64,000 nucleotides of DNA. It comes from Kriegella aquimaris. Lineage in GTDB: Bacteria; Bacteroidota; Bacteroidia; Flavobacteriales; Flavobacteriaceae. The notes below the pieces were generated by a model that was not told where the DNA came from, did no database searches, and saw only the letters and a program-made list of their open reading frames with translations. Shown in pieces: positions 28,128 through 47,126 of the stretch (position 1 is the stretch's first letter; every line of letters begins with the position of its first letter). The stretch spans positions 1-64,000 of the forward strand of contig NZ_FNGV01000003.1 in NCBI RefSeq assembly GCF_900103215.1, read 5' to 3'. Made by a program: the position numbers and the translations under genes.

Positions 28128-28169
28128 TTATCTGATTTTCGAAAAGGTTAGGGACGCACATTGCCACAG

Positions 28170-31956: not shown

Positions 31957-34191
31957 ATGAGAAAAGTAAATCAGTATTACATTTGGGTAATTTCATTGCT
32001 AGTTTTATCGTGTGGCAGTCCTAAAAATGAAAAAGAAGTCGTTTCTGCAATGCCCGTTTATAAAGATGTACCCTATATACAAAATTATAGTATAAAGTAT
32101 AATGCTCAAGATATGGAACTTTCTGAAGTCCATATGGATAGAAATGGCGTTATTCAGGTACTCTCCTCCAAAGGTGTGCTACGCACCCATGACGGCCAAT
32201 TTTTATACCCAGGTATATTGATGAAAGACAAAACTTATCGGCCGATTACGGATAAAAACATAAGTGGCTTTACCTTGTACCAAAATCAATTTGTTTATTT
32301 AGATGACAAAGCCGTTTTAAGCAATGCTTGGGCAGGTAGTCTTTATCTTTCCCATGACCTCCCCGAAGCTAAAATTTTAGCAGCAGGTGATGATTTCGAT
32401 TTCTTGATCAGTGATGGTAAGGCCTTACAATTCCTCTCAAAGGATAAAGCACCTTGGAAAGAAGAAATCGATGATCAGGTATTGGAAATAAAGTACAATT
32501 CCGCAAAAAAGACATTTTGGATTTTGGGAACACAAAGCATTTCGAGCTTTGACGCTACTACCAACACCTTAAAGACAACACAACAAGAGCAGAATTTAAC
32601 CTCTTTTGCCCTAATTGACGACAAATTGATTGTTGGCACATCAGATGGCTATTTTGAAATAGATTCTAGAACTAGCAAGAAAATTGGGGAAACTCAAAAG
32701 AAACTACCTGCCAACGAAATAACATCGATTGCGGCCATAGATGGTCAACTTTGGTTCGGTTCTTCCGAGGGCGCCTTCAAAATGCGCGATGATGGTAAAT
32801 TCGATTACTACTACGGAAAACGTTGGTTACCCGGCAACGTCGTAAAGCATATTTCACAAGGAACAAATGGGTCCGTTTTGGTATTAACAGATGCCGGTCT
32901 CGGCCAAATCGTATTCGAAGAAATGACTCTTTTTGATAAGGCTCAATACTATGAATCACAAGTAAGAAACCGACATATTCGTCTAGGGTTCAATGCTAAT
33001 TTAGTCGATTTAGACCATGGAAATATTGATTCGGGTCGACTTTCAGATTCCGATAATGATGGCTTATGGACAACCATGTACCTTGCAGCAGAAGTTTTTC
33101 GTTATTCGGTTACCAAATCGGCAGTTGCCCTCCAAAACTGTCGTGAAGCAATGGATGCCATGGAAAGGTTGTTCAGTATAAATCCCGTACCGGGGTTTCC
33201 CTCCCGTTCCTTCGAGCGTAGTGGTTATATTGAGAAATTGCACGACCCAGACAGGTGGCAACACTCCAACGATCCCGAGTGGGATTGGAAATCGACTACC
33301 AGTAGCGATGAGGCCATCGGTCATATTTTTGCTTATGGCGTTATGGCTGAATTGATGGATAATGATCTAAAAGATCGCGCAATAACCCTAATCGATACCT
33401 TGATGAGCCATGTGGTCCGCAATGATTTATATATGGTCGATTTTGATGGAAAACCCACTACTTGGGGCAAATGGAACCCTGAATATGTAAATGCGAGACC
33501 AAAAATGGTGGGCGATCGAAAAATTAACTCTTCCAATATTATTGGCATGTTACAAACAGCCTATCATTTCACAGGAAAGGAAAAGTATAAAGAAAAGGCC
33601 TTCGACCTGATGGATAACCATGGCTATCTCGAAAACCTCATGTGGCCGATGAAAGATGTAGCTCCCGCCCCAGACGATGCAGACGATTGGAGCAAGATGC
33701 TATCTGAATCGTGGAACCATTCCGATGATGAAATGTATTTTGTAGGATATTGGGGATTATACAGATATGCTTTTAACGACACCCTTAAAACAAAATTTAA
33801 AGAATCCATTCTCGATCATTGGGAAATTGAACGACCTGAAAAAGAAGGTGCTTGGAACATTATGACGGCATTGACCGGTACTTCGGAATTTGATCTTGGG
33901 GAGGCCGTATGGTACCTCAAAGAACATCCTTTAGATATGGTTTCATGGGATATTAAGAACAGCCACCGAAAAGACCTAGAATTCATTGCTCCCAACTTTA
34001 GGGAACAAACCACTAAAGAAGTACTTCCTCCCGACGAAAGAAGGGTACAGCGTCATAATGGCAATATGTTTCAGTTGGATAAAATTGGAAATGATGGCGG
34101 TGAAGAATTTTCGGCCGGCGATATTTGGCTTCTCCCCTATTGGATGGGCCGCTACTTAGGTGTCATCAGTGAACCCCAACCATTGAAGTAA
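31957..34191 (+). CDS. Lipoprotein: propeller plus alpha/alpha-barrel, family unknown (paralogue A)
   Basis: The 744-residue protein has a lipobox (LLVLSC, Cys19). Residues about 45-320 are repetitive beta strands with turns such as GQLWFGSSEG and GSVLVLTDAGLGQI, like the two-component regulator propeller repeat. Residues about 340-740 are helical, with features shared with 34239-36368 and 44008-45231: a DNDG..TTMYLAAEVFRY helix, PGFPSRSF (412-419), TTSSDEAIGH (447-456), VDFDGKPTTWGKWNPEY (494-510) and a final WLLPYWMGRYLGVI. The helical part looks like an (alpha/alpha)6 toroid, common in glycoside hydrolases and polysaccharide lyases. Function is not known; a surface glycan-degrading role is inferred from location and fold. 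Confidence 0.65.
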   Translation: MRKVNQYYIWVISLLVLSCGSPKNEKEVVSAMPVYKDVPYIQNYSIKYNAQDMELSEVHMDRNGVIQVLSSKGVLRTHDGQFLYPGILMKDKTYRPITDKNISGFTLYQNQFVYLDDKAVLSNAWAGSLYLSHDLPEAKILAAGDDFDFLISDGKALQFLSKDKAPWKEEIDDQVLEIKYNSAKKTFWILGTQSISSFDATTNTLKTTQQEQNLTSFALIDDKLIVGTSDGYFEIDSRTSKKIGETQKKLPANEITSIAAIDGQLWFGSSEGAFKMRDDGKFDYYYGKRWLPGNVVKHISQGTNGSVLVLTDAGLGQIVFEEMTLFDKAQYYESQVRNRHIRLGFNANLVDLDHGNIDSGRLSDSDNDGLWTTMYLAAEVFRYSVTKSAVALQNCREAMDAMERLFSINPVPGFPSRSFERSGYIEKLHDPDRWQHSNDPEWDWKSTTSSDEAIGHIFAYGVMAELMDNDLKDRAITLIDTLMSHVVRNDLYMVDFDGKPTTWGKWNPEYVNARPKMVGDRKINSSNIIGMLQTAYHFTGKEKYKEKAFDLMDNHGYLENLMWPMKDVAPAPDDADDWSKMLSESWNHSDDEMYFVGYWGLYRYAFNDTLKTKFKESILDHWEIERPEKEGAWNIMTALTGTSEFDLGEAVWYLKEHPLDMVSWDIKNSHRKDLEFIAPNFREQTTKEVLPPDERRVQRHNGNMFQLDKIGNDGGEEFSAGDIWLLPYWMGRYLGVISEPQPLK

Positions 34192-34238
34192 CCGTCACAG
34201 ATTTCCTTAAAGAAAGTAACCATTCAATTCGATACCCT

Positions 34239-36368
34239 ATGCGAGCCCTTTTACTGATTTTAATAGCGTTTTTACAATACTCTTTTATATCTACCGGGGA
34301 AAAAGACAAGTTCCGACAAGATGTTTCGGTAATTCATAGTAGTGACCAGGGGCTCCCTCAAGGCGCCATTGATAGAATACAACTTTCTAACAATGTACCG
34401 TTGGCAACTGCCTCTGGAAAGGCCTACCAATGGAACGGAAAGCAATGGGCACAGTCAAAAAATTCCTCAAATCTACCGTCAGTATCTCAATTCAAAAAGT
34501 TGCCTGAAGGTGCTGGAAAAGTGCTCTCCGAAGTAACCTTTAAAGACAAAATCTATATTGGTTGTGAAAACGGTCTGTACGTCAAAGACAAAAAAAGCAA
34601 ATGGAAGCAGGTATTACCTTTTGATGAAAATTATAGTTGGGCGTTAAAAAAAGTCGCCGCCCTAGTGGTAGATTCAAGCGGTAATCTATGGTTTGGGTCT
34701 AAAGAAGGTATCGGAAAAAACAGTAATGGAACCTGGCAGCTATACACCGGTAAAGAAGGCGTACCCTACACCAAGTTTACCTGTGCTTCAGCAGGACCTG
34801 GAGGTGAGGTGTGGTTCGGCACCGAAAATGGGGCAATAAGGGCTGAGAATGATTATTTCTACTATCGTTCTACACGGCGTTGGCTACCTGACAACCGCGT
34901 AAACGATATCGCTATAGACAAAGATGGTTCCGCTTGGATAGCAACGGATAAAGGCATTGGTCAAATTCTCTCAAAAGAAATGACCTATGAGGAAAAGGCA
35001 GCCTATTTTACCCAACAGACCGAAGAAAGACATAATAGAATGGGGTTCATTTGTCAGAATCAGCTTAGTGAGCAATTTAATATAGATAGCTATGAACTAG
35101 CGATTTCTGACAACGACGGGCAATACACCTCAATGTACGGGGCCGCCCAAGCTTTTCGATATGCTATCACAGGAGATAGGGAAGCCAAAGAAATTGCCGA
35201 TAGAAGTTTTAAGGCCGTGAAATGGTTGGTCGATATTACTCCAGAACCAGGTTTTCCTGCCCGTGTTATCATTCCTGTTGATTGGCATGAACCGGTAAAT
35301 GAACAATACAGCAAGGAGTACAATAAAAGAAACCAAAAAAATGACCCGTTCTGGAAAGACATCTATCCCCGATTTCCGTTGAGCGAAGACGGTAAATACC
35401 GATGGAAATGTGATACCAGCTCCGACGAATTGGCGGGGCATTACTTCTATTATGGCGTCTATTACGACCTTGTCGCTGAAACCGAAGAAGAGAAAAAAGC
35501 GGTTAAGCAGGTAGTAGCAGATGTTACCGACCATCTCATTCGCCATAGTTTCAAATTGGTCGACTACGATGGTAAACCCACACGTTGGGGCAGTTTTGAC
35601 CCCGACTACTTTAACTCCATTTGGGGTTGGGATCAGCGCGGTCTGAATTCGATGATGATGCTCTCCTTTCTTAATGTAGCCAGCCATGTTACCGAAGATC
35701 CAAAATATGACGAAGTAGCCAAAATGCTTCGCGACGAGGAAAATTACCATATCAATGCCATGCATCCCAAAGAATTTTTCCCTCCTGAGAATGTTGTGCC
35801 GTGGGACAACAATCTAGGATTAATGAGTTTTTACGGGCTTATCAACTATGAAAAAGATCCCGAGCTCCTCATGATGTATCGTCTTTCCTTGGAATATGCC
35901 TGGTTAAATATCAGTAAACAAAAGAATGCTTTCTGGGATGGCCTTTACGGAGCACTAGCGAATACCTTTACCAAGAAAGTAAACGAAGGCTATTTTAATA
36001 CCAGTGAACTGTTCAAAGAGAATCCGTTGTTTGCCCAATCGGTTATTGATCGCTACGGAAAAAGCAGTCTTGATACGAAATATATTAAGGAAACCTTACA
36101 GCGTATCCCCCTGGACCTTATCGGATACGAAGTGGACAATACCCATCGTCTTGACGTGATTTTCGACCCAACGCCAGCGCAAGAGGCTGATATGGGGTGG
36201 CGTGTAGATACCTATGCCCTTCCTATCGATGAACGCGGGCATGTTCGCTTGGATAGAGATGCCTTTGACCTGCACGATTCAGAAGGAAACGGCTATTCGG
36301 AACACGAAGGTACTTTCTATCTTTTACCCTATTACTTCGCTAAATATCATAATTTAATTCCTCATTAG
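34239..36368 (+). CDS. Exported propeller plus alpha/alpha-barrel, family unknown (paralogue B)
   Basis: This 709-residue protein has a short N-terminal hydrophobic signal (MRALLLILIAFLQYSFIS). Residues about 30-245 form propeller repeats (NLWFGSKEG, EVWFGTENG, SAWIATDKGIGQI). From about 265 a helical domain matches the neighbour: DNDGQYTSMYGAAQAFRY (291-308), PEPGFPARV (335-343), CDTSSDELAGH (391-401), VDYDGKPTRWGSFDPDY (441-457) and FYLLPYYFAKYHNLI at the end. A WGWDQRGLNSMMML helix lies just after the motif. The gene starts 47 bp after paralogue A, so they are one operon created by tandem duplication. A shared terminator lies downstream. Confidence 0.65.
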   Translation: MRALLLILIAFLQYSFISTGEKDKFRQDVSVIHSSDQGLPQGAIDRIQLSNNVPLATASGKAYQWNGKQWAQSKNSSNLPSVSQFKKLPEGAGKVLSEVTFKDKIYIGCENGLYVKDKKSKWKQVLPFDENYSWALKKVAALVVDSSGNLWFGSKEGIGKNSNGTWQLYTGKEGVPYTKFTCASAGPGGEVWFGTENGAIRAENDYFYYRSTRRWLPDNRVNDIAIDKDGSAWIATDKGIGQILSKEMTYEEKAAYFTQQTEERHNRMGFICQNQLSEQFNIDSYELAISDNDGQYTSMYGAAQAFRYAITGDREAKEIADRSFKAVKWLVDITPEPGFPARVIIPVDWHEPVNEQYSKEYNKRNQKNDPFWKDIYPRFPLSEDGKYRWKCDTSSDELAGHYFYYGVYYDLVAETEEEKKAVKQVVADVTDHLIRHSFKLVDYDGKPTRWGSFDPDYFNSIWGWDQRGLNSMMMLSFLNVASHVTEDPKYDEVAKMLRDEENYHINAMHPKEFFPPENVVPWDNNLGLMSFYGLINYEKDPELLMMYRLSLEYAWLNISKQKNAFWDGLYGALANTFTKKVNEGYFNTSELFKENPLFAQSVIDRYGKSSLDTKYIKETLQRIPLDLIGYEVDNTHRLDVIFDPTPAQEADMGWRVDTYALPIDERGHVRLDRDAFDLHDSEGNGYSEHEGTFYLLPYYFAKYHNLIPH

Positions 36369-36391
36369 AACATAGCGGAAATATAAATAAT

Positions 36392-36436
36392 AGCGCCCGT
36401 CCATTTCTACTTTCAATATAGAAATGGACAGGCGCT
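36392..36436. terminator. Bidirectional terminator
   Basis: An 18-bp stem with a single mismatch (AGCGCCCGTCCATTTCTA against TAGAAATGGACAGGCGCT) has a 9-nt loop. It lies between the convergent paralogue B gene and the FucP-type permease gene, and serves both. Confidence 0.75.
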
Positions 36437-36458
36437 TACTTATTGTTGAACATAAGGT

Positions 36459-37691
36459 TTAAATGTTGGCTTCAACTTGAGCCAATTCATTAGCTCCGGG
36501 CTTATACCCATTTACCGCATAGTAAATGATAAATGCGTAGCATAAAAGCGGTAAAATATAAGACAAATGAAGCCCGATTGCCGGCATATCGGCCAAAACT
36601 CCTTGCAGCAACGGCAATATAGCTCCACCAACGGGCGCCATAACCAAAATACCGGCCGCTTTGTTCGTATATTTTCCTAGACCGTTAACAGCTAAGGTAA
36701 ATATGTTGGACCACATTATTGAGTTAAACAGACCAACGGCCAACATCGCCCACATGGCCACATAACCATTTGTGAGGATGGTTACAGCTAGCAATAATAC
36801 AGAAGCCAAAGCCGAAGTGAACAATACTTTTTGGGAACTGGCCTTTTGTAAAATGGCAGATCCCAGAAAACGACCTATCATCAATCCGGCCCAGTAAATT
36901 GGAATATACGTAGCGGCTTTTTTCTCGGCGAAACCAGCAATATTAGCCTCTCCTAAAAAGTTTACTATAAAACTACCAATGGCCACTTCGGCGCCAACAT
37001 AAAGCATCAAGGCAATGGCCCCCAATCGCAATTGTCGAAATTTCAACACATTTCCCTTCACCTTTACCCCATCGGTTTCCAACACCTTCGGTAGTTTTAA
37101 GAAATAGAAAATAACGGCGATTGAAAAGGCGAAAATCGCCAAACCTATATAGGGTATTTCCACAGCGGCCGCAGCCTCTTGCGGCGTATTGTAATGCCCC
37201 AATATCAAAAAGCCACCGGCCAAGGGGGCCAGCGTCGTTGCCAAAGAATTGATACCCTGTGCCAAATTCAAACGACTAGAAGCGGTTTCTGGTTTACCTA
37301 ATATAATTACATAGGGATTGGCCACTACTTGCAGAATTACGCTACCCGTAGCCATTGTAAACAATCCGAATAAAAACAACGGATACGAGACGGACCAAGA
37401 TGCAGGCAAAAATATGAGTGCCCCCAAACCGATTGTAATCAATCCGGCAGAGATACCCTTTTTATATCCGATACGTTCAACCAGTAAACTCGCCGGAACC
37501 GCCATTAAGAAATACGCTCCAAAGAAACAGAACTGTATCAGCATTGTCTCTGTGTAGTTCATCTCGAACAAACCTTTGAAGTGCGGAATCAAAATATCGT
37601 TCAGTGAGACGATTGCCCCCCAAATAAAGAATAGTGAGGTCATTAGGGCAAAAGCACCCCTGAAATTCTTGGTTTGTGTTGCGTTTTTCAA
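36459..37691 (-). CDS. FucP-type sugar:H+ symporter (MFS)
   Basis: This 410-residue inner-membrane protein has twelve predicted helices and the FucP-group signature FFIWGAIVSLNDILIPHFK (residues 21-39), plus VVANPYVIILG and RLNLAQGINSLATTLAPLAGG in the middle. Members carry L-fucose, but related proteins carry other sugars including glucose, galactose or N-acetylglucosamine, so specificity is open; the L-fucose isomerase 28 kb away makes fucose reasonable. It is last in the minus-strand operon beginning near 45231. Confidence 0.85.
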   Translation of the reverse strand: MKNATQTKNFRGAFALMTSLFFIWGAIVSLNDILIPHFKGLFEMNYTETMLIQFCFFGAYFLMAVPASLLVERIGYKKGISAGLITIGLGALIFLPASWSVSYPLFLFGLFTMATGSVILQVVANPYVIILGKPETASSRLNLAQGINSLATTLAPLAGGFLILGHYNTPQEAAAAVEIPYIGLAIFAFSIAVIFYFLKLPKVLETDGVKVKGNVLKFRQLRLGAIALMLYVGAEVAIGSFIVNFLGEANIAGFAEKKAATYIPIYWAGLMIGRFLGSAILQKASSQKVLFTSALASVLLLAVTILTNGYVAMWAMLAVGLFNSIMWSNIFTLAVNGLGKYTNKAAGILVMAPVGGAILPLLQGVLADMPAIGLHLSYILPLLCYAFIIYYAVNGYKPGANELAQVEANI

Positions 37692-37738
37692 TAGTATAGA
37701 TTTAAATTATTAGTATTTACTCGCTTTATTAATTCACT

Positions 37739-39118
37739 TTACAAGCTAAGAACATCATGGAGCTCTAAGATGAATATTTGCTTATATTCATTATTCTCTT
37801 CCCCGTTAATTATTCGCGATGCTGTTGCATTGGGTAGGTCCACATTGTAAGCTAAGCTTTTTCCATCGGGAGATACAACCAAAGCTTCGCGGTTCAAATC
37901 ATCGGGAGTCAACAAAATCGACTTTCCGAAATCGGCAGAACTACCAATATAACTGGCGTAAACTTTTCCACCGCTAATTGAAAATAACCATTCGTCGGAA
38001 GGATGCCAACGAACGTTGCTGGCATCGGTGGCATAGTCAGTTACCTGCATCGGTCTTTTCTTCATATCATCTGACCTATCCGATCCGTCAACATGAATTA
38101 TAAAAACTTGTGATATGCCCTTTTCATCTTTTGATAAATAAGCAATCTGTTTGCCCGAATAGGATCCTCGTACAATACCTTCATCGCTTGTACTATGGGT
38201 CAATCTTCTTATTTCGACACCCTTTGGAGGATTTGGATAAGTATTGGCATCACCGGAATAAGCCGACGTAATTTCTACGGAGCCAGGTATTTCAGCAATG
38301 AAAAGTGAAGTTTTATAATCAACCCCGTTTTCGGCGCGTACTTTTCCAATAAAGGCACGTTTTGAACCCATAGAATCAACCCAAGAATCACCGTAGGCCT
38401 TTTCAATTTCCCCTGGTTTTGATTCCCCTTTTTTGACAGGTTTCACCAATACCGCAAAATAATGGCTGAATCCTTCCGGAGCACTATTACTAGCTTCCAT
38501 ATAACCTATGGTACGATCATAATCTTGCTGTAAAAAGTCGTCATAGGTAAAACCGATGCGTTCCCCATTTCTAGAATATTCATGTCGATGCGTACCACCT
38601 CGCTGTGCTCCCGGAGTTGTTGGCCTATCGGTAGCCACATCCCTTAAATCGGCAATTGAAAACTCTCCATTTCCGTCGGCGCTGACGATTGCCCCATTTC
38701 TGTTTCTTATATCATAATATCCCCTTTCATCAACTTCTTCCAATAAAGGACCATGAATAAAAACCACTTTGTTTTCCGTAGGATGGTAAGAAACCGCGGC
38801 AACACCAGGCGCCGCATTTTCTCCCGAAATGGATTCTGGTTGCCATAGCACCGTTTCCTCCCCCGTTGCAATGGCTACTTTTTCTACAGACTTGCTGTTG
38901 GCTAAATTAGTATTGAACACCATGTAACGCGTATCGTAACACAAAAAGCGTCCATCTGGGGAAAAATTATCATTGTTATCCAAAGCATGGGTCTTTGCAT
39001 TGAAGGTAATTTGTTTTTCGGTCATTATATCGTTTTTAGACGCTACTTGTTCTTTACAACTTATCATGCAAGAAAATACCATGATTAATATGAAACCCGG
39101 AATTTTTAAAGTGCGCAT
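37739..39118 (-). CDS. DUF3748-like (TolB-type propeller) lipoprotein
   Basis: The 459-residue protein has a lipobox (VFSCMISC, Cys21) and WD40/TolB-like beta-propeller repeats such as NFSPDGRFLCYDTRYM (51-66), SYHPTENKVVFIHGP and RWHPSDEWLFSISG. The arrangement resembles the DUF3748/YidR family. The mid-protein segment TTPGAQRGGTHRHEYSRNGE is rich in conserved-looking polar residues. It could bind sugar or stabilise envelope enzymes; no catalytic residues are known. It lies between the SIS-domain gene (54 bp) and the permease gene (47 bp) in the same operon. Confidence 0.68.
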   Translation of the reverse strand: MRTLKIPGFILIMVFSCMISCKEQVASKNDIMTEKQITFNAKTHALDNNDNFSPDGRFLCYDTRYMVFNTNLANSKSVEKVAIATGEETVLWQPESISGENAAPGVAAVSYHPTENKVVFIHGPLLEEVDERGYYDIRNRNGAIVSADGNGEFSIADLRDVATDRPTTPGAQRGGTHRHEYSRNGERIGFTYDDFLQQDYDRTIGYMEASNSAPEGFSHYFAVLVKPVKKGESKPGEIEKAYGDSWVDSMGSKRAFIGKVRAENGVDYKTSLFIAEIPGSVEITSAYSGDANTYPNPPKGVEIRRLTHSTSDEGIVRGSYSGKQIAYLSKDEKGISQVFIIHVDGSDRSDDMKKRPMQVTDYATDASNVRWHPSDEWLFSISGGKVYASYIGSSADFGKSILLTPDDLNREALVVSPDGKSLAYNVDLPNATASRIINGEENNEYKQIFILELHDVLSL

Positions 39119-39172
39119 TTGTTAAGTTTTTTCTTTAATAGGTATCAGATAAAGTACATATTTTTCAGTATT

Positions 39173-39832
39173 TCAGAAAAAAGTCTCTTCGACCATAATG
39201 CAAAGAGCATGGTATATCGGCAAATGGTATTCTTGAACAGCTGCGGTACTGGTCGCGGGGACACATATTGCCACATCGCATAACGATTTGATCTTGCCTC
39301 CCGATTCCCCAAGCAACCCAATTACCTTTATACCCAAAGCTTTTGCCGTAATACAGGCATCTAAGACATTGACAGAATTCCCAGAAGTACTAATGGCCAA
39401 TAAAACGTCATTCTTTCGACCATAGCCCAACACTTGTTGCGCAAAAATAAAATCACCGCCGATATCATTTGAAATCGCGGAAATCAAACCGCCATGGGCA
39501 TTCAATGAGATTGCCGCCAATCCTCTTTCTAATTTCGAAGCAAGTATCGCCCCCCTTTCTCCTGAACTTTCAAGAAGATTTTTTTCAAATTCAGCGGTAA
39601 CTGGGCGTTTTTTAGAAAAGCTTTTCATCAACTCGCCCACAATATGATCCGAATCGGAAGCACTGCCACCATTACCACAGACCAACAACTTACCTTCGTT
39701 TTGATAGCATTCAACCAATACTTCACCTGCATTTCTTACAGATTCTTTACAAGTTTCAAGTGGTGGATACCTTTGTATTAAATTTTGGACTATATCTTCT
39801 AAGTTCATATTTACTTTCTCATCTTTCACCAT
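39173..39832 (-). CDS. SIS-domain phosphosugar isomerase, GmhA-like
   Basis: This 219-residue cytosolic protein has the SIS fold of sedoheptulose-7-phosphate isomerase (GmhA) and DiaA-like proteins. Visible motifs are VCGNGGSASDSDHIVGEL (48-65), SNDIGGDFIFAQQV, LLAISTSGNS (phosphate loop) and VQEYHLPIYHALC. The start could be the first methionine or MNLEDIV eight codons later. Next to a ROK kinase it probably isomerises a sugar phosphate made by that kinase, a pairing that would serve aldose-ketose or deoxy/heptose-type sugars. Standalone length fits GmhA (about 190-220). Confidence 0.85.
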   Translation of the reverse strand: MVKDEKVNMNLEDIVQNLIQRYPPLETCKESVRNAGEVLVECYQNEGKLLVCGNGGSASDSDHIVGELMKSFSKKRPVTAEFEKNLLESSGERGAILASKLERGLAAISLNAHGGLISAISNDIGGDFIFAQQVLGYGRKNDVLLAISTSGNSVNVLDACITAKALGIKVIGLLGESGGKIKSLCDVAICVPATSTAAVQEYHLPIYHALCIMVEETFF

Positions 39833-39874
39833 AAGGCTGTTCTTGTTGTTTTTTAATTGTACGCTATTTTTTAT

Positions 39875-40900
39875 TTATTGCATGGCTACACCCAACGCTG
39901 CATAATCACCAATTTTATCACCTAATTTGGCCGGCAAAATACGACACACTTCAAGCGCTTCGGGAATGGCTTCTTTTTTAAGCACCTCATAGACCAATGG
40001 TTTTAATAAGGCTTCGTTTCTGGCGTAAATGCTGCCGATGACAATGCATTCGGGATTCAAAGTATCGATAAGTATGGCCAATGCCTTTCCGAGATATTCA
40101 GCAGAAATTTTTACAATTTCCAGAGCCACCTGATCGCCTTGAAGGGCAGCTGTAAATACAGCTTTGGCCGTGATGGCATCGACATCTTCCACTGTTGGAC
40201 AAAACCCAACAACTATCTTGTTTTTAAGTTTATGTTCGACAGTACTTTTGGCTAGTTTGGCAATGCCTCCCCCACTGCAAAATCCTTCAAACGATCCTGC
40301 TTTTCCAAAACCTATGGGTCCATCATCGGCCAAACGAAGATGCCCTACTTCTCCCCCAAGGTCATTGGTTCCTGAGTATATTTTTCCATTCAGGATGAGT
40401 CCAGCTCCCATTCCTGTTCCAAAAGTCAAAAAAATCATATTCTCAGTGCCTACTCCGGCACCCATCATCCACTCGGCCAAGGCACAGGCATTGGCATCAT
40501 TTTGTATAGCTACCGCTATTCCGAATTCTTTCTCTAGGATTTCTACTATTGGAATATCATCCCAACCTGGTAAATTTGGTGGTGATTTTATCAATCCTAG
40601 TTTTGAATCAAGCGGACCACCACAGCTTATTCCAATTTTTACCAATTTTTCACGATCATATTTTTCAAAAAGTTGATGAATATGCTGCTTAAATTCATTT
40701 AAGATAATTGTCGGGCCCCGCTCCACTTTAGTTTCAAAAAAAACCTTCTCATAGATGTTGAAATCGTCATCACCCAAAACTACGGCGCATTTGGTACCCC
40801 CAATATCTAAACCTACATAAAAGGCTGAAGGTTGTTTAGAATGGTTCTGTTTTTTCATTATTTGTTCCGTATTCTTTTCTTTAAACAAATGGGATGTCAT
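39875..40900 (-). CDS. ROK-family sugar kinase, zinc motif absent
   Basis: The protein belongs to the ROK family (glucokinase, ManNAc kinase and similar). The ATP-binding motif VGLDIGGTKCAVVLG, the catalytic Asp in QNDANACALAEW, FGTGMGAGLIL and GGEVGHLRL are present. The usual zinc-binding CxCGxxGCxE is absent: the following segment reads GPIGFGKAGSFEGFCSGGG. The annotated start is the first ATG, but MKKQNHS (start 40858) is more natural because the extra 14 residues look like leader. It phosphorylates an imported sugar in the cytosol; the SIS isomerase gene follows after 42 bp. Confidence 0.87.
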   Translation of the reverse strand: MTSHLFKEKNTEQIMKKQNHSKQPSAFYVGLDIGGTKCAVVLGDDDFNIYEKVFFETKVERGPTIILNEFKQHIHQLFEKYDREKLVKIGISCGGPLDSKLGLIKSPPNLPGWDDIPIVEILEKEFGIAVAIQNDANACALAEWMMGAGVGTENMIFLTFGTGMGAGLILNGKIYSGTNDLGGEVGHLRLADDGPIGFGKAGSFEGFCSGGGIAKLAKSTVEHKLKNKIVVGFCPTVEDVDAITAKAVFTAALQGDQVALEIVKISAEYLGKALAILIDTLNPECIVIGSIYARNEALLKPLVYEVLKKEAIPEALEVCRILPAKLGDKIGDYAALGVAMQ

Positions 40901-40928
40901 GCTTGATCAAAAATAGAAAACCCCCTCC

Positions 40929-43259
40929 CTATTGTTTTAATATCCACACATCGGTAACCCGTGATTGTTTTCTCCAATTCAAATGTTCTTCATCTGGTTT
41001 ATCAAAAGTGATCTCTAATTTTCCATCTTGAATAAGGTTTTTTGGAAGTGGAAATTCCTTAAATTGTTCAAATCCTTTTTCATATTTAGTAGGCTTCAAT
41101 CGTTGACCATTAGCCCGCAAAAGCGCCTCTCCATATCCTGAAACACGAATAAGATAATTTGCATCGGCATCAAGTTCATCATATGACAACGTAGGGGTGA
41201 ATTGAAACAACTGCGTAGATAGCCGTTTTCTGCTTACTCCGTCATTTTCCCATAAATAATCAATGGCATCATCTGTTTCCGAGGTCACATGTTTGGCATC
41301 TGCACTCGAAATATTATCATAAAAACTTCCTTCACCAGGAAACTCATACGTTCTAATAAATTCGAGTCTCTCCAATTTTTCATTTTCGGTAGAGAGCTTT
41401 TTGACCTTTTCAAATTCATCTTCTAGCCACCACCTATTATTCAAGGGATAATCTATAAAATCTAGAATGGCACCACGTTCCGCACTTTTGGCCTGGTATT
41501 TTGACACACTTGTCTGCGCCCCAATAGAGTGAAAGAGAGCCTCGGCATATTCGAAAACTTTCTGTTTTAAATTTTGGGCGACCAATTCGGTATCGGCTTT
41601 TTCTAAATAAACGCGTGCCTCATTTACAGCTTCCTCCGCCCCTAATGTATCGGCATTCGCAAGTATATCGTAGGCTTTCGATTCGAGACCCTTTTCATAG
41701 GTAAGCCTTTCTTTGATATAAGCGTCGTAATACGCTCGCATAACCAATTGTTGCCACCTCCAATTATCGGTCAACTCCGGGTGTTGGGCTTCCATCTCTT
41801 GCCAAAGGGCCAAAGTTTCTGTTATAACTTTATTACCTAAAGCGGGGCCCACCCAATTTTGTTCCAAAGCAAAAATTCCTTCCACGGATTTTTTAGCAAC
41901 TTTTGGTCCGAAGAAAAACTGGCAGTATTCAAAAATAATATCGTGTACATCTTGTTTGGAATCCCAGCCCAATTGGCTCCAAACCACTTTATTTACATCA
42001 TCATGAGAACCGTCGGAATAGGTAATAAAACCATCCGTATAACCAATATCTTTATTAAACAGCTTGGTATATTGAAGCGGTTGCGGATTACATGGTTCAC
42101 GCCCCAAGGTCAATGCAAATGCCTGATCCCATCGCTCTACAGGATAGTGACACCGTACGGTATGGGTGATATCGGGATAAAAGCGGTGTAAATACTTTTC
42201 AGGCAAAAGTTCCCGTTCTAAATCGATGGGTGGACTGCTTGGCCCGTAAACAAGCCCTTTAAGCCAATCTGGATTATTAGCTTTCAGATAGTCGAAAAAA
42301 TAAGTCACTTTCTCTTCATTGAACCCCTGCAAGGATACCCATATTCCTGCATCGGGATGATATTTTTTTAGTACTACCGACAAATCTTTGAGGTAAGGTA
42401 TCAATTTGGAGGGATGATTTTCGCCCGGATCACCCCCAGGAACAAACACACCATCCAATCTTGGGCATCGGGCATAGAAAGCCTCTTGTTCTTTCAAACC
42501 TTCTTGATGTGCGTTGGGGACGTTTAAATCATGCGGAGCGGGGGTCCACACCCAATAATCGGCATCATACTTTTCACATATTTCACTCAAACGCACTTCC
42601 ATTTCTTGTGGGTTCACTTTAAAATGAACGCTGGAAGAAGACTCTTGAAAAGGGATGTTTTCAAAACTATTGGCACCAAAAAGTACTTGTTCACGAAAAT
42701 GTTGATCGAATTGTTCGACTGTCCAAGCATCCCACGAATTCGCCGTATTGCGATACCCAAATTGATGTCCACGCAACGGATATTCGGGAGCTGAAGTTAT
42801 ATCTAAGTTATTGGCAATCTTAATGTGTCCCAATTCCATTTGAGCAATTCGTAACAGTTTACCAATGCCGTAGAGCACCCCTCGGGCGTCCGCGCCAATA
42901 ATCCATAAAATATCCTTTTTTCCATCTTTTTGATGAACTATGCGATAGCCTTCCTTTTTTATGTGTTTTTTATCGGCATCTTTTGCATAAGGTACCTTTT
43001 CTCCAAAGACATCGGCCTCACCTTGTAAGACCAGGGCTATTGTCGTGTTGGAGCCCCAGCCATTTGATTTCTCCAGTTCAATGGTCGTACGTCTTTCTAT
43101 TTCCTCTGCCAACACATTCCCTGCAGTTTCATGCATGGGACTTTTAATTTCCTTGGAAACCAAAATTGTTGCCTTAGACAGATCTAAACTATCGTTCACT
43201 TGATGCGTACACGAGAAGTTCAAGCCCAATAGCAGTAAAAATAATATTACTTTTGACAT
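40929..43259 (-). CDS. GH67/GH20-superfamily-like glycoside hydrolase lipoprotein
   Basis: The start is placed at the ATG at 43259, since MSKVILFLLLLGLNFSC from there gives a lipoprotein signal (Cys17) and removes a 26-bp overlap with the next gene. The protein (776 residues) is a clear paralogue of 24815-27271: ARGVLYGIGKLLR, RGHQFGYRNTANSWDAW, PRLDGVFVPGGDPGE, RFYPDITH, GREPCNPQP and SYSDGSHDDVNK occur in the same order. The position after GGDPG is Glu here and Asp in the paralogue. It is probably tethered in the outer membrane or periplasm. Family membership is by superfamily resemblance only. Confidence 0.72.
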   Translation of the reverse strand: MSKVILFLLLLGLNFSCTHQVNDSLDLSKATILVSKEIKSPMHETAGNVLAEEIERRTTIELEKSNGWGSNTTIALVLQGEADVFGEKVPYAKDADKKHIKKEGYRIVHQKDGKKDILWIIGADARGVLYGIGKLLRIAQMELGHIKIANNLDITSAPEYPLRGHQFGYRNTANSWDAWTVEQFDQHFREQVLFGANSFENIPFQESSSSVHFKVNPQEMEVRLSEICEKYDADYWVWTPAPHDLNVPNAHQEGLKEQEAFYARCPRLDGVFVPGGDPGENHPSKLIPYLKDLSVVLKKYHPDAGIWVSLQGFNEEKVTYFFDYLKANNPDWLKGLVYGPSSPPIDLERELLPEKYLHRFYPDITHTVRCHYPVERWDQAFALTLGREPCNPQPLQYTKLFNKDIGYTDGFITYSDGSHDDVNKVVWSQLGWDSKQDVHDIIFEYCQFFFGPKVAKKSVEGIFALEQNWVGPALGNKVITETLALWQEMEAQHPELTDNWRWQQLVMRAYYDAYIKERLTYEKGLESKAYDILANADTLGAEEAVNEARVYLEKADTELVAQNLKQKVFEYAEALFHSIGAQTSVSKYQAKSAERGAILDFIDYPLNNRWWLEDEFEKVKKLSTENEKLERLEFIRTYEFPGEGSFYDNISSADAKHVTSETDDAIDYLWENDGVSRKRLSTQLFQFTPTLSYDELDADANYLIRVSGYGEALLRANGQRLKPTKYEKGFEQFKEFPLPKNLIQDGKLEITFDKPDEEHLNWRKQSRVTDVWILKQ

Positions 43260-43290
43260 TGCTTTTTTATTTATTTCGAATTCTCGGTTG

Positions 43291-43992
43291 CTACTTCTGT
43301 TCAATATCCAATACACATCTAAACCCTACAGGGTAATTACTAATCTTTTCAGGTAACAAATAGTACCGCTGCGAGGTACGAATAAACGAATGGTTATTGA
43401 AATTAGAGCCCCCGCGCATTACTTTATACTTTTCCCCATATTGCTCCATAGGAGTTTTATTGCCAGGATAGGGTTTGTACCAATCGGCTGTCCACTCCCA
43501 AACTCCCCCAGCCATATCAAAACAACCGTACGGACTTGCGGGTTTGGCAATTGAAGTACCCCTCGTACTTTTTTGGTCCCAAACAACATAGGTATTATCA
43601 TAGGTATTTCCCCAAGGAAATACGCGGCCATCAATACCCCTTGCTGCTTTTTCCCACTCTTTTTCAGTAGGCAAACGCTTTCCGGCCCATTTGGCATAGG
43701 CATCGGCCTGAGACCACGTAACGATGGCCGCATTATCTTTTTTTGAGGCAGGAAATTTAAAACTGGAATCAAATTTGGCAAACTCCGTATTGCTTATCTC
43801 ATACTTATCTATAAAAAAAGCTTTTGTATATGCTATTTGTTTGGGCTTCTCATCATGGTCGCCATACTTACTGCCCATAATGAACCCACCTTCCGCAACC
43901 AAAACCATACCTTCGGGCGGCTCATTCAAGTCTTGTGAAAAATTTGGCGAAGTACCAATTAAAATAATAAGCGCTGTATAAAATATTTTCAT
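43291..43992 (-). CDS. Exported SUMF1/FGE-sulfatase-domain protein
   Basis: The 233-residue protein begins with a signal peptide (about residues 1-19) and has the formylglycine-generating-enzyme-like (SUMF1) fold: GFIMGSKYGDHDEKP, FFIDKYEISNTEFAKF, AGKRLPTEKEWEKAARG, FPWGN, GVWEWTADWY and MRGGSNFNN in order. The cysteines expected in an active formylglycine-generating enzyme are not visible in the usual positions near the C-terminus (TSQRYYLLPEKISNYPVGFRC). No sulfatase is present nearby. It is more likely a non-catalytic SUMF1-domain protein, of a type often found in glycan loci. It lies between the second GH gene and paralogue C in the operon. Confidence 0.83.
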   Translation of the reverse strand: MKIFYTALIILIGTSPNFSQDLNEPPEGMVLVAEGGFIMGSKYGDHDEKPKQIAYTKAFFIDKYEISNTEFAKFDSSFKFPASKKDNAAIVTWSQADAYAKWAGKRLPTEKEWEKAARGIDGRVFPWGNTYDNTYVVWDQKSTRGTSIAKPASPYGCFDMAGGVWEWTADWYKPYPGNKTPMEQYGEKYKVMRGGSNFNNHSFIRTSQRYYLLPEKISNYPVGFRCVLDIEQK

Positions 43993-44007
43993 TCTTACGA
44001 TTTCAAT

Positions 44008-45231
44008 TTACCATTTTTCATCTATAATGCCGTAATATCTACCGAACCAATAGTTACGGATCATGGCCGCCGCCGTACCTTCTTCTTCTGATGTTATTTT
44101 TTTAAAACTTCCGTCTTTCTGAGGAATATTGAACTCCTTTTTACGACGTTCGAAGCCCCACATGTCTTTAATAGCCTGCTTTTTATCCTCCGTCATAATA
44201 TCTTCATCCGTGAGTACTTGATAAACCATAACAAACCAGATTGTACTTTCCCAGGTGAACTCGATGTCTTTCCAATCGTACCAATGTCTGTTCAAATTCA
44301 TGCGGTACTTGTTCAGTAAATTGGGGTCATCTTCATACCGCATCAACATATATAGCGAGCGTGCGGCATGATAGTCGTCACCGACATTTCTCCACTCTTC
44401 AGGAAATAGAATTTTAGAATTGATTTGATGATCATCATACTGATAACGGTCAATAAGCATATGGTAAGCAGCGTTAAAACGTTCTTTACCCGTTATACGA
44501 TGGGTCACTTTGAGTGCCGCCAACATTTCTAAAGAATTGAGCTGTTGGTGTGGAAGGTCGGGACAAAAATTACCCCATAGTGTCATTTTGCCATCTAAAT
44601 CGGTAAGTTTGAAATTATTGTCTATAACCCGCCCAATAAAACGATCCAATAAACCAGCGGCCTTTTTTTTGTATTCGGCGTCGGCACAGATTTCCCAAAA
44701 GGTTCCTACGCCGTAAAAAATTGAAGTGAATTTATCCGCACTTAAATCACCCAGCCATCGGTACCCGGGCATTGATGTAGATCCGTGCCACTCATGGTAC
44801 CACATTACCTCTTCATGCCATAAAGGTTCATCTGTTTTATTAAAACTACGTGCAACGAGACCACTGACCCCGGTAACTTTTTCCAATTTTAATATCGCCT
44901 CGAAAATCTGGTTGGCTATTTCTCTATCTTTATTGTCTTTTGTAAGCGCGTATTTATGGGAATAGGCAGCCAACATTTCGGATGTAGGATCTAAACAGTC
45001 AGCTTGAGAACCGACAATGGGCCTATCAAGACCTGCTGGAGGAAAGATAACATGTTGCATAATGGCACCTTCGTTCCAATGATTACCCAACATCAATCTA
45101 TCGAATAGGGCTACTTTTTTATGTAGTGGATCGGTTTTGCTTGGAAATTCATTCACTTTTTGGGCCCATATCTGTAAAGTGACAAATACGAAACAAAGGA
45201 ATATTAAACTAAGCCGTAATTTATTATGCAT
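44008..45231 (-). CDS. Exported alpha/alpha-barrel protein, family unknown (paralogue C)
   Basis: The start is set at the ATG at 45231 because the signal peptide (MHNKLRLSLIFLCFVFVTL, cleavage after WAQ) begins there; an upstream frame extension adds 16 residues. The 407-residue protein is helical throughout and lacks a propeller. It shares with paralogues A and B the segments SGLVARSFN, LGDLSADKFTS and TDLDGKMTLWGNFCPD (210-225), then LNSLEMLAALKVTHRITGKERF and a closing RNYWFGRYYGII. The middle motif replaces DGKPTxWG by DGKMTLWG. It is the first gene of the minus-strand operon with SUMF1, GH, ROK and SIS genes. A glycan-cleaving role is inferred. Confidence 0.68.
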   Translation of the reverse strand: MHNKLRLSLIFLCFVFVTLQIWAQKVNEFPSKTDPLHKKVALFDRLMLGNHWNEGAIMQHVIFPPAGLDRPIVGSQADCLDPTSEMLAAYSHKYALTKDNKDREIANQIFEAILKLEKVTGVSGLVARSFNKTDEPLWHEEVMWYHEWHGSTSMPGYRWLGDLSADKFTSIFYGVGTFWEICADAEYKKKAAGLLDRFIGRVIDNNFKLTDLDGKMTLWGNFCPDLPHQQLNSLEMLAALKVTHRITGKERFNAAYHMLIDRYQYDDHQINSKILFPEEWRNVGDDYHAARSLYMLMRYEDDPNLLNKYRMNLNRHWYDWKDIEFTWESTIWFVMVYQVLTDEDIMTEDKKQAIKDMWGFERRKKEFNIPQKDGSFKKITSEEEGTAAAMIRNYWFGRYYGIIDEKW

Positions 45232-45323
45232 ATTTAAAACTTTATTCCTTGACCACTTCTTGCAATGCCTAATATACATGAACTCCCAAAGGAGTAACTA
45301 AAACTTGTGTTTGCTACAAAGAA

Positions 45324-45416: not shown

Positions 45417-47105
45417 CTACCATGGGGTAGCCACGCCTTGCACAATCCATGGTCTAGCATAAGGGCTGTCATTCGGATCAGTCGTACTGTATGCGGTTCC
45501 TTCCAATGAAGATGCCGCAGTAGTATAATTGGCGGTATTTGTATTGATTTCATCATCTGGATAGATAAATCTTAATGGCATAACATCTTCTCTTGCAAAA
45601 GGACCTGCGCTTAAATTAGGTAGCCCGGTTCTTCTCCAATCCATATAAGCTTCATCTCCGTTGAACATATTAGCAATCCACTTTTGCTCCATTACCTGTT
45701 CTAATGTACCGCCAAAAGCAACTCCCGCATTCATAATATAATCAGAATAGGTATCGCCAAGACCCCAAACCTCTAGGGAGGCCTTTACACCTTCCAAGTA
45801 ATTCCCTTCAGCATCAGAACCCCAGCCTCTTATTGCCGCTTCCGCTTTTAAGAAAGATAATTCTGCATAAGAAAACAATCTAGCTTTTAAAAGGTTTCCA
45901 CCGTCATCTTTCTGGTTGAAAACTTCATTCATTCTAGACACGTAAGCATTTGTACCACCTCTTGAACCTTCTGAATTTAAGTTGTACTCATAGGGGTCGA
46001 CAGCACTTACGGCTACAGGCAATCCAACATAAACACTACTGGTGTCTATTAGTTTTTTACCTGCCTCTAAATCGGCGGCATATGTTGCTTGGGAGTATAT
46101 CGCATAATCATTAGCGTCTAAAGTTTCTTCGTTGATATAACGAATACCATCTTCTTCAGCCATATCACCACCTCCGGGTACTTCTGCCGCAGGTACTACT
46201 TTAGTTGGTGTGACTACAGGCGCAAACCAAATCGAAATTCTTGGGTCGTCTAGCTCTTTCAACTTATCTGTTAAGGTTGTACAAGGCTTAACTCTATAAA
46301 AATCAGAAGCCGATCCAAACTGACCACTACTTGGCCAAGATTGACTATCAATACCGCCAATATAACTTAGCACTAGTTCATCATCGATTTCACTAATTAA
46401 TGGCTTATTAAGTGTACTTGTTACGCCAGCTTGAGCGAAAGCAGGTAATTTTTCAGATAAGCGCATATAGTAACGCAAGGCCAAAGAATTGGCTAATTTT
46501 TGCCACTTTGAAGCGTCGCCACCGTAAAATACATCTTGATCCTCTACTATACCTTCATAATTTGCTGCACCTAAAAGACTTGAAGCCGCCTCTAAGTCTG
46601 CAATAATGCCTTTATAAACAGTTTCTTGAGAATCATATACCGGTCGTTCATCTTCAAAATTGGCACCTAGTAATGCATTGGAATAGGGTATGTCACCATA
46701 ATAATCGGTCAAATTACCGAACAACATTGATTTTAATATTAAAGTAACACCTTCATGAAAAGGTAACCCAAGTTCTACTGCTCTCTCGTAGGCTACTTTA
46801 TTGGTGCGCAACAATCCGTAATTTGAATTCCAAATAGAACCCGTTTCCCAATCGTAACGATTGTTTGACCAAGAATCTTTCTGTATAAACTGCGATGCAG
46901 CTCCGGTATCGCCAGAATAACCTCTACTTGTTGTACTTGTTGCTAAGCCGGTCATTACCGAACTGATCAATAAATTGGGATCAACCACACTGGACTCTAC
47001 CCCATTTGGGTTCTCATTTATTTCTACAAGCCCATCATCGCAAGAAACTATAGTCAACAATGGAACAAATAGAAATAGTATTGCTATGTTTTTAACTAAT
47101 TTCAT
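45417..47105 (-). CDS. SusD/RagB outer-membrane lipoprotein (pair 1)
   Basis: The 562-residue protein has a lipobox (LLTIVSC, Cys22) and resembles the SusD-like_2 (PF12771-type) family that caps a SusC porin and binds glycan at the cell surface. Visible segments are VDPNLLISSVMTGLA (41-55), FGNLTDYYGDIPYSNALLG and KWQKLANSLALRYYMRLSEK. The C-terminal segment TGLPNLSAGPFAREDVMPLRFIYP is typical of the group. It lies 21 bp after its SusC partner on the same strand. Specificity cannot be read. Confidence 0.93.
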   Translation of the reverse strand: MKLVKNIAILFLFVPLLTIVSCDDGLVEINENPNGVESSVVDPNLLISSVMTGLATSTTSRGYSGDTGAASQFIQKDSWSNNRYDWETGSIWNSNYGLLRTNKVAYERAVELGLPFHEGVTLILKSMLFGNLTDYYGDIPYSNALLGANFEDERPVYDSQETVYKGIIADLEAASSLLGAANYEGIVEDQDVFYGGDASKWQKLANSLALRYYMRLSEKLPAFAQAGVTSTLNKPLISEIDDELVLSYIGGIDSQSWPSSGQFGSASDFYRVKPCTTLTDKLKELDDPRISIWFAPVVTPTKVVPAAEVPGGGDMAEEDGIRYINEETLDANDYAIYSQATYAADLEAGKKLIDTSSVYVGLPVAVSAVDPYEYNLNSEGSRGGTNAYVSRMNEVFNQKDDGGNLLKARLFSYAELSFLKAEAAIRGWGSDAEGNYLEGVKASLEVWGLGDTYSDYIMNAGVAFGGTLEQVMEQKWIANMFNGDEAYMDWRRTGLPNLSAGPFAREDVMPLRFIYPDDEINTNTANYTTAASSLEGTAYSTTDPNDSPYARPWIVQGVATPW

Positions 47106-47126
47106 ATCCTTATTTTTTTATTTTAA

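Follow-up and report, generated by a model that had tools for sequence, protein, structure and literature searches.

We examined three genes, o1, o2 and o3, in a 64,000-nucleotide stretch of Kriegella aquimaris DNA (NCBI RefSeq assembly GCF_900103215.1, contig NZ_FNGV01000003.1, positions 1 to 64,000 of the forward strand; hereafter the window). Their products share a helical domain with a DGKPTxWG-type signature that an earlier note, made from the sequence alone, had described as an unrecognised alpha/alpha-barrel family. The genes, their domains and their main motifs are listed below, with lengths in amino acids (aa). In the list each product is numbered by itself; elsewhere residue numbers follow o1 unless stated otherwise.

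31957..34191, plus strand: o1, open reading frame of 744 aa, with a lipoprotein-type signal, a beta-propeller at about aa 40-323 and a canonical alpha/alpha barrel at aa 325-744
32929..34188, plus strand: o1 barrel domain, from BLASTP and profile matches
33301..33312, plus strand: o1 SSDE motif, S449-E452, at the start of inner helix 2 (model helix 450-466)
33445..33468, plus strand: o1 DGKPTTWG signature, D497-G504, in the loop preceding inner helix 3
34239..36368, plus strand: o2, open reading frame of 709 aa, with a signal peptide, a Reg_prop propeller and a canonical barrel at aa 244-709
34968..36365, plus strand: o2 barrel domain, from BLASTP and profile matches
35418..35429, plus strand: o2 SSDE motif, S394-E397, by alignment
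35568..35591, plus strand: o2 DGKPTRWG signature, D444-G451, by alignment
44008..45231, minus strand: o3, 407 aa, with a signal peptide and a barrel, without a propeller; member of a divergent clade
44731..44742, minus strand: SADK in o3 replacing SSDE (D166 kept, E changed to K), by alignment
44572..44595, minus strand: o3 DGKMTLWG signature, D213-G220, by alignment

All three frames are real at the places the earlier note gave them. The longest open frame of o3 runs over 44008-45279 on the minus strand (423 aa), a strand that the earlier note did not give, and we prefer the start at 45231 because it yields a signal-peptide-like N-terminus and a length of 407 aa, equal to that of an 84% identical copy in genome G011. 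Judged by eye, the sequences also bear out signals on these proteins of a polysaccharide locus: o1 has a lipoprotein-type LLVLSC, and o2 and o3 have signal-peptide-like stretches. The fusion of two copies to propellers stands on a different footing in each. In o2 the Pfam family PF07494 (Reg_prop) scores above its cut-off (E 1.5e-10), while in o1 the same family stays below it (E 0.0029) and the propeller is instead recognised in the structural model, which matches beta-propellers at about residues 40-323.

By sequence comparison o1, o2 and o3 are related through the helical domain, far above chance. BLASTP aligned o1 with o2 at 30% identity over 554 positions (E 4e-64), o1 with o3 at 25% over 381 (E 6e-20) and o2 with o3 at 29% over 319 (E 8e-30). 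The shared motifs occur in the order described previously, though only partially in o3, which lacks DNDG and has SADK for SSDE. Maribacter aquimaris has a copy of o1 that is 84% identical, and two more family copies lie on contig C36 of the K. aquimaris genome.

The barrel family apparently has no counterpart in the sequence libraries that we searched, which were Pfam-A, NCBIfam and the PDB sequences. In Pfam-A, o3 had no match and o1 and o2 matched propeller models only, plus a stray sub-threshold AAA_24 in o2; the sole NCBIfam match was a sub-threshold propeller one in o2 (PorZ), with none to the barrels. When 87 aligned barrel domains were compared with Pfam at E <= 0.1, they hit 12 scattered families, the commonest being the glycoside hydrolase (GH) family GH127 in 8 of the 87 (best E 0.02). 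The profile search against Pfam that the earlier note had proposed matched no established GH or polysaccharide lyase (PL) family to all three barrels. Searching the PDB sequences with phmmer returned nothing for o3 up to E 10 and, for o1, a single match within the propeller and none for the barrel; with the 87-row barrel profile the sole match up to E 10 was to a designed helical pore (E 7.8). The claim that the barrel belongs to no named family is correct within these three libraries.

Whether the family already stands in CAZy, as a recent entry or as one without a Pfam model, is a separate question whose odds do not add to those of the functional readings discussed below. New (alpha/alpha)6 families, GH192-GH194, appeared in 2025 (PMC12102758). 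We nevertheless consider a CAZy entry unlikely, given the outcome of the PDB profile search and a literature search in which none of the open-access titles and abstract beginnings listed concerned a propeller-(alpha/alpha)6 glycosidase or the present family.

To the extent that genome records reveal it, the family is broadly but sparsely distributed. Scanning one genome per species for a degenerate peptide gave at least 589 matching stretches, of which at least 552 encode a relative by tblastn, where one gene may yield two stretches; we kept the best 80 loci. Record titles label the relatives as Bacteroidota, Planctomycetota, Verrucomicrobiota, Acidobacteriota, Hydrogenedentota, Armatimonadota and Poribacteria, and further as Calditrichota, Omnitrophota, Clostridia, Actinomycetota, Nitrospiraceae, Myxococcales and others. 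Many of these come from metagenome-assembled genomes (MAGs), so that single labels, such as the archaeal one of L093, may be binning errors. The many phylum labels, together with the presence of the family in 7 of the 395 genomes of an even phylum sample (K. aquimaris counted), indicate a distribution that is wide yet thin. Scanned virus contigs held no family relatives, and a tblastn search of plasmids with one actinobacterial member as query gave no match.

For sequence comparison we assembled 92 barrel stretches from L056-L135, each covering 380 profile positions or more; shorter pieces in L066, L082, L087 and L094 were dropped. Alignment A2 omitted 8 of these 92, namely L074 and near-duplicates belonging to Arenibacter and Zobellia, and alignment A3 omitted 12 of 60 full-length stretches; most full-length rows are about 25-31% identical to o1. 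In a tree of 93 domains, made by a quick method with SH-aLRT support only, o1 and o2 fall into different subfamilies, both well supported, and a branch of 2.8 changes per site separates the o3 clade (4 rows) from the rest. The separate subfamilies indicate that o1, o2 and o3 are old paralogues and not recent copies.

We are confident, on the strength of a predicted model, that o3 has an (alpha/alpha)6 barrel of six hairpins with twelve alternating inner and outer helices. An AlphaFold2 model built from the 87-row alignment (pLDDT 86, pTM 0.87) places twelve long alternating helices at o3 residues 36-50, 80-97, 100-118, 165-181, 185-204, 230-247, 250-263, 283-299, 303-320, 328-341, 348-355 and 388-399, with short extras at 17-20 and 265-271. 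This helix pattern and the likeness of the model to (alpha/alpha)6 enzymes agree with the barrel that had been predicted from the sequence. Foldseek returned 24 PDB chains at E <= 0.001, led by cellobiose 2-epimerases (ranks 1-3) and GH76. The best VIA-align match was 7tem_B (Z 18.7, root-mean-square deviation 4.0, 300 aligned), tied with cellobiose 2-epimerases (Z <= 18.6) and followed by GH76 (up to 17.9) and by GH9, GH52, GH125, invertases and others (about 17-16). Since no single match stands out, the fold places o3 in the (alpha/alpha)6 superfamily and not in a named family. Families missing from these lists, such as PL families among the 50 VIA-align rows, carry no weight in our argument. 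In the full-length o1 model (pLDDT 89.3, pTM 0.89) the barrel comes after a propeller at about 40-323, and propellers filled the Foldseek and VIA-align searches made with this model.

The prominence of epimerases in these searches raises the possibility that the barrels act as epimerases or isomerases like those of the GlcNAc-2-epimerase family (AGE, PF07221), altering sugars released in the periplasm. They share the barrel fold, but GH76 and other hydrolases reach almost equal Z. AGE enzymes use two catalytic histidines on later inner helices, whereas H456, on inner helix 2, is the only His conserved at >= 90% in the 85 canonical rows (the 87 minus two from the o3 clade). A profile comparison with ten AGE proteins gave a probability of 4%, which excludes AGE weakly, as GH88 scores a similar 4.1% against AGE. 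We consider this reading very unlikely.

That comparison was part of a wider series of hhalign profile comparisons against target alignments of 6 to 16 proteins. Besides AGE, the family scored 1.6% with GH88, 12.5% with GH105, 11.7% with GH127 and 40% (a partial match) with GH76. Controls between known families ranged from high (GH76/GH88 97.5%, GH76/GH105 96.5%, GH88/GH105 96.2%, GH105/GH127 94.6%, GH76/AGE 92%) to lower (GH76/GH127 78%, GH105/AGE 58%, AGE/GH127 31%, GH88/AGE 4.1%); o3 matched the canonical profile at 100%, and four reversed-sequence controls gave <= 0.2%. Because known families of the same fold span 4.1-97.5%, low scores are weak evidence of separateness.

Membership of GH88/GH105, AGE and GH127 was considered but left aside, taking these scores together with Pfam matches of the 87 rows at E <= 0.1. 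PF07470 (GH88/GH105) and PF07221 were matched by none of the 87, and PF07944 (GH127) stayed below its cut-off in the 8 rows mentioned above. GH88/GH105 unsaturated uronyl hydrolases resemble the family in their (alpha/alpha)6 fold, with 3wiw at Foldseek rank 41, and carry their acids at inner helix starts; the likeness to GH127 beta-L-arabinofuranosidases is confined to that faint, non-significant Pfam signal. PF03663 (GH76) was likewise matched by no member. GH76 endo-alpha-1,6-mannanases, which like the present family have a link to alpha-mannose, in their case through their activity, nonetheless share the (alpha/alpha)6 barrel and have the top Foldseek TM-scores (BT2949, PDB 4v1s/4v1r; TMq 0.54-0.55, TMt 0.60, Z 17.7-17.9). 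Both groups have adjacent acids, GH76 a DD at residues 109-142 (six proteins) and the present family D451-E452, 126 residues into the barrel. The family differs from GH76 in having DE and not DD, an attached propeller and other pocket residues, and the 40% hhalign match covers 95 columns only and is, by our reading of the spacing, shifted from the acid pair. The beta-1,2-glucanase families (GH144, 162, 189, 192-194) have a clan-conserved Glu, Tyr and Phe (PMC12102758). GH195, from a diatom-mannan locus that contains GH92, was dropped as a candidate because its authors call it distantly GH99-related (PMC13063451).

Canonical members share a highly conserved pocket. Strongly conserved in the 85 canonical rows are R342, D366, N367, D368, G369, R417, W444, S449, S450, D451, E452, H456, D497, T501, W503, D590, N668, R671, D673 and Y728, and o1 and o2 both keep R342, DNDG, R417, SSDExxGH, NxxRxD and the propeller end. 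Each of the 14 Asp, Glu, His and Arg residues conserved at >= 90% sits either in a loop that leads into an inner helix of the o1 model or at the beginning of such a helix. Consistent with a pocket on one side of the barrel, 25 of the 30 polar positions conserved at >= 90% are on the odd-to-even face (Fisher p 0.011), as are 20 of 22 at >= 95% (p 0.003), the exceptions being K328, Y383, T386, Y728 and Y733. The p values are modest support, because the face is broadly defined (256 of 413 positions, 62% of the domain).

The acids of SSDE and of DxDG had both been put forward as the best catalytic candidates. For the SSDE pair this holds well, with D451 present in 85 of 85 canonical rows and E452 in 84 of 85, and we predict from the alignment that these two are the best candidates. 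The DxDG acids are among the less conserved, at 0.91 and 0.92, with the second being Asn or Thr in some members, whereas R342, D368, H456, R671 and D673 reach 0.98-1.00. The DNDG motif, taken by itself, may be a metal site.

The o3 clade departs from this pattern. It comprises o3 and three orthologues (Maribacter aquimaris, G011 and G353), and in all four DNDG is changed to CLDPTS, SSDE to SADK or SSDK, the His to Ile and R342 to Asn (N53 of o3), and the NxxRxD loop is absent. Kept in o3 are D166 (equivalent to D451), R128 (equivalent to R417), D213, T217, W219, D285 and Y394, in o3 numbering. The clade is under strong purifying selection: between o3 and its M. aquimaris orthologue, dN is 0.045, dS 0.924 and omega 0.048 over 407 codons, a value from one pair, dS being not computable for the other five pairs of the clade. 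An FGE-domain gene adjoins o3 in four of the four genomes examined (the window, L049, L056 and L246). In L246 (19.9 kb) no other gene of the locus was recognised besides this pair, and in Zobellia amurskyensis (L060) both are absent from the corresponding place, where SusD follows the GH67N-like gene. The 395-genome samples searched contained no o3-type barrels in further genomes. Taken together with the altered motifs, we think that o3 is probably a repurposed paralogue with a different role.

The o3 clade is also set apart by lacking a propeller, as no propeller profile match better than E 0.17 was found in the first 60 residues of its four members. Elsewhere the propeller is nearly constant: for 89 of the 92 barrels the same open frame holds one ahead of the barrel, and every match extends to the last blades, though 48 of these 89 positives are among the 50 A3 rows from which the profile was built. 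Sixteen members with short N-termini, none of them used in the profile, all keep the propeller end. The three exceptions are the M. aquimaris orthologue of o3, L074, which the contig start truncates, and L088:9992, with its propeller in an adjoining frame (E 6e-35). That last locus (L088 9079-11389) encodes propeller and barrel in two overlapping frames, which could reflect a genuine frameshift, a gene split in two or a MAG sequencing error. The proposal that the barrel works with or without the propeller lacks support, because the only stand-alone clade found has an altered pocket, having lost most of the canonical constellation.

The o3 clade bears on a further reading, in which the entire family is non-catalytic and consists of secreted glycan-binding or chaperone-like propeller-barrel proteins. 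The clade shed most of the pocket and is yet conserved, and Reg_prop propellers of the hybrid sensors BT4673 and BT4663 lead the Foldseek list of the o1 model (3ott, E 5e-12; 4a2l, E 2e-11), although 4a2l superposes on the o1 propeller at a Z of 24.6 that many other propellers approach. Unlike those sensors, the present proteins have about one propeller, fused to a barrel, and no kinase. The pocket, moreover, is preserved nearly letter for letter in the 85 canonical rows and across many phyla in spite of the low overall identity to o1, and acidic residues together with a His where helices begin are what one would expect for catalysis, not for binding alone. We regard a wholly non-catalytic family as quite improbable.

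Neighbouring genes in Bacteroidota bear on the substrate. The genes that the earlier note placed beside the family are present in the window, namely a GH92 enzyme (E 1.5e-177) and a gene resembling GH20b/GH67N. Relatives of GH92 also lie near family members in L055, L056, L060, L063 and L064, and GH38 relatives in L063 (Pfam) and in L064 and L130 (BLASTP only). This recurrence near o1- and o2-type genes favours a mannose-containing substrate in Bacteroidota.

We lean towards reading o1 and o2 as glycoside hydrolases that act together with GH92 on a glycan containing alpha-mannose, and o3 as a repurposed paralogue. The conserved pocket would be formed by the loops before the inner helices, with D451 and E452 as acid/base and D368, D497 or D590 as a partner. 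R342, R417, H456 and R671 could bind the substrate through an anionic or polar group, and the propeller might close or orient the cleft. At the periplasm or cell surface, o1 and o2 would cut a glycosidic bond alongside the GH92 and GH20/67-like enzymes, with GH92 finishing the products. As for o3, it would perhaps have a modified activity or bind glycan, tied to its FGE-domain neighbour.

Several points weigh against this interpretation. N367, H456, R417 and the invariant Y728 would fit a lyase too, and the low profile scores exclude known families only weakly, as the 4.1% of GH88 versus AGE illustrates. The face test covers a broad face of positions that are not independent. The one barrel folded separately is that of o3, an atypical member, and because propellers filled the searches with the o1 model, the canonical barrel has no fold match of its own. 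The link to alpha-mannosidases comes from a handful of Bacteroidota loci, and in other phyla the commonest neighbour family is sulfatase, at only 6 of the 109 neighbours scanned.

The first of these points corresponds to a distinct proposal, namely that o1 and o2 are (alpha/alpha)-type polysaccharide lyases, a type that includes PL8, PL12, PL15, PL17, PL21, PL35 and PL39, cleaving beside a uronic acid, with N367 as neutraliser, H456 or Y728 as base and acid, and the arginines binding an acidic chain. N367, R417, H456 and Y728 are near-invariant, and PL35 and its kin use Asn, Tyr and His in a toroid fold (PMC12088678); Asn, His and Tyr are likewise among the conserved residues here, and PL35, PL15 and PL17 share the (alpha/alpha) toroid. 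The genomic context would fit as well, with genes for an aldolase and a 2-hydroxyacid dehydrogenase at 27315-29135 beside GH92, a DHDPS gene at 4539, and DHDPS, SSF and GFO/IDH genes near family members in L048, L050 and L052. Against this, the catalytic His of many lyases tabulated in PMC12088678 sits in a beta-sheet domain beyond the toroid, and the family, unlike PL35, PL15 and PL17, has no C-terminal beta-sheet domain after the barrel. No sequence match to these lyases was found, the sole lyase-family signal being Hepar_II_III_N in 2 of the 87 rows (best E 0.019). The near-invariant acids D366, D368, D451, E452, D590 and D673 fit a hydrolase better, and we judge a lyase unlikely.

A wider proposition is evenly balanced in our estimation: that these genes represent a new, widespread, propeller-capped (alpha/alpha)6 family of glycan-cleaving enzymes marked by a catalytic constellation of its own (R, DNDG, R, SSDExxGH, DxDGKPTxWG, D, NxxRxD, Y), outside the catalogued families that we tested, and that in one Bacteroidia clade the propeller was lost jointly with most of the constellation while purifying selection kept the clade as an FGE partner. 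A wide family with an enzyme fold, a near-invariant pocket and no name in the libraries searched would mark a reaction on environmental glycans that annotation has missed. The presence of o1, o2 and o3 in one locus offers a compact test system of two intact members and a natural pocket knock-out, and the joint loss of propeller and pocket in o3 provides a way to test whether the propeller helps build the active site.

The remaining genes of the locus are as follows.

29385..31757, plus strand: GH92-family enzyme (PF07971 E 1.5e-177, TIGR01180 672 bits), directly upstream of o1
36459..37691, minus strand: MFS sugar transporter, gluP/fucP/NagP-like (TIGR01272 E 2.1e-90, above cut-off)
37739..39118, minus strand: DUF3748/TolB-like protein (PF12566 E 5.9e-21)
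39173..39832, minus strand: SIS-domain sugar-phosphate isomerase-like protein (PF13580 E 1.3e-20)
39875..40900, minus strand: ROK sugar kinase (PF00480 E 1.3e-57)
40929..43316, minus strand: glycosidase-like protein with a GH20b/GH67N N-terminal domain (PF02838 E 2.9e-6, PF03648 E 3.1e-5)
43291..43992, minus strand: FGE-sulfatase-domain protein with a signal-like N-terminus (PF03781 E 2.2e-43)
45417..50492, minus strand: SusD-like and SusC-like glycan uptake pair (PF12771 E 1.8e-76; PF07715, PF13715)

The plus strand thus carries GH92, o1 and o2, and the minus strand SusC, SusD, o3, FGE, the GH20/67-like gene, ROK, SIS, DUF3748 and MFS. M. aquimaris shows the same layout, which Z. amurskyensis and G011 share in part.

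We also took a census of neighbouring genes. From Bacteroidota loci we scanned 97 of 109 neighbours, excluding two proteins of great length and three Arenibacter loci; for the other loci 109 of 247 were chosen by hand for size and nearness. In neither set did any family outnumber sulfatase, with 6 among the 97 and 6 among the 109. Other recurrent neighbours, all in small counts, were BNR proteins, DUF3748, SSF and DHDPS; the DUF3748 group recurs in 11 of 88 loci, a count that includes four near-duplicates from Arenibacter. The census names no substrate, because of the small counts, the near-duplicate Arenibacter loci and the lack of a base-rate control. An inositol-phosphoceramide glycan was also considered as a substrate; nothing beyond gene names pointed to it, and we do not claim it.

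In addition, we noted several features in and around these loci. The second K. aquimaris locus (genome G000, contig C36, L048 2331-13804) contains two canonical members with DHDPS, SSF symporter, GFO/IDH, FG-GAP protein and GDPD genes, an arrangement that L050 resembles. In the window, the proteins of 24815-27271 and 40929-43316 have GH67N-like N-terminal domains (one also GH20b) and no Pfam match over the rest, and are possibly, from this domain pattern, members of another unnamed glycosidase family. The genes at 27315-29135, divergent beside GH92, encode an HpcH/HpaI-type aldolase and a D-2-hydroxyacid dehydrogenase, a hint of keto-deoxy sugar acid breakdown. A 348 aa protein without a Pfam match at E 0.001 is encoded at 18011-19057, after a GlcNAc 2-epimerase-like gene, and 21162-22238 encodes an AraC-type regulator whose N-terminal part matches an SCO4226-like nickel-responsive domain. 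Finally, a ceramidase-like protein of L093 (7885-9171; PF04734 E 2.3e-9, above cut-off) belongs to a group found near the family in 7 of 88 loci, the others being L055, L062, L095, L106, L110 and L121.

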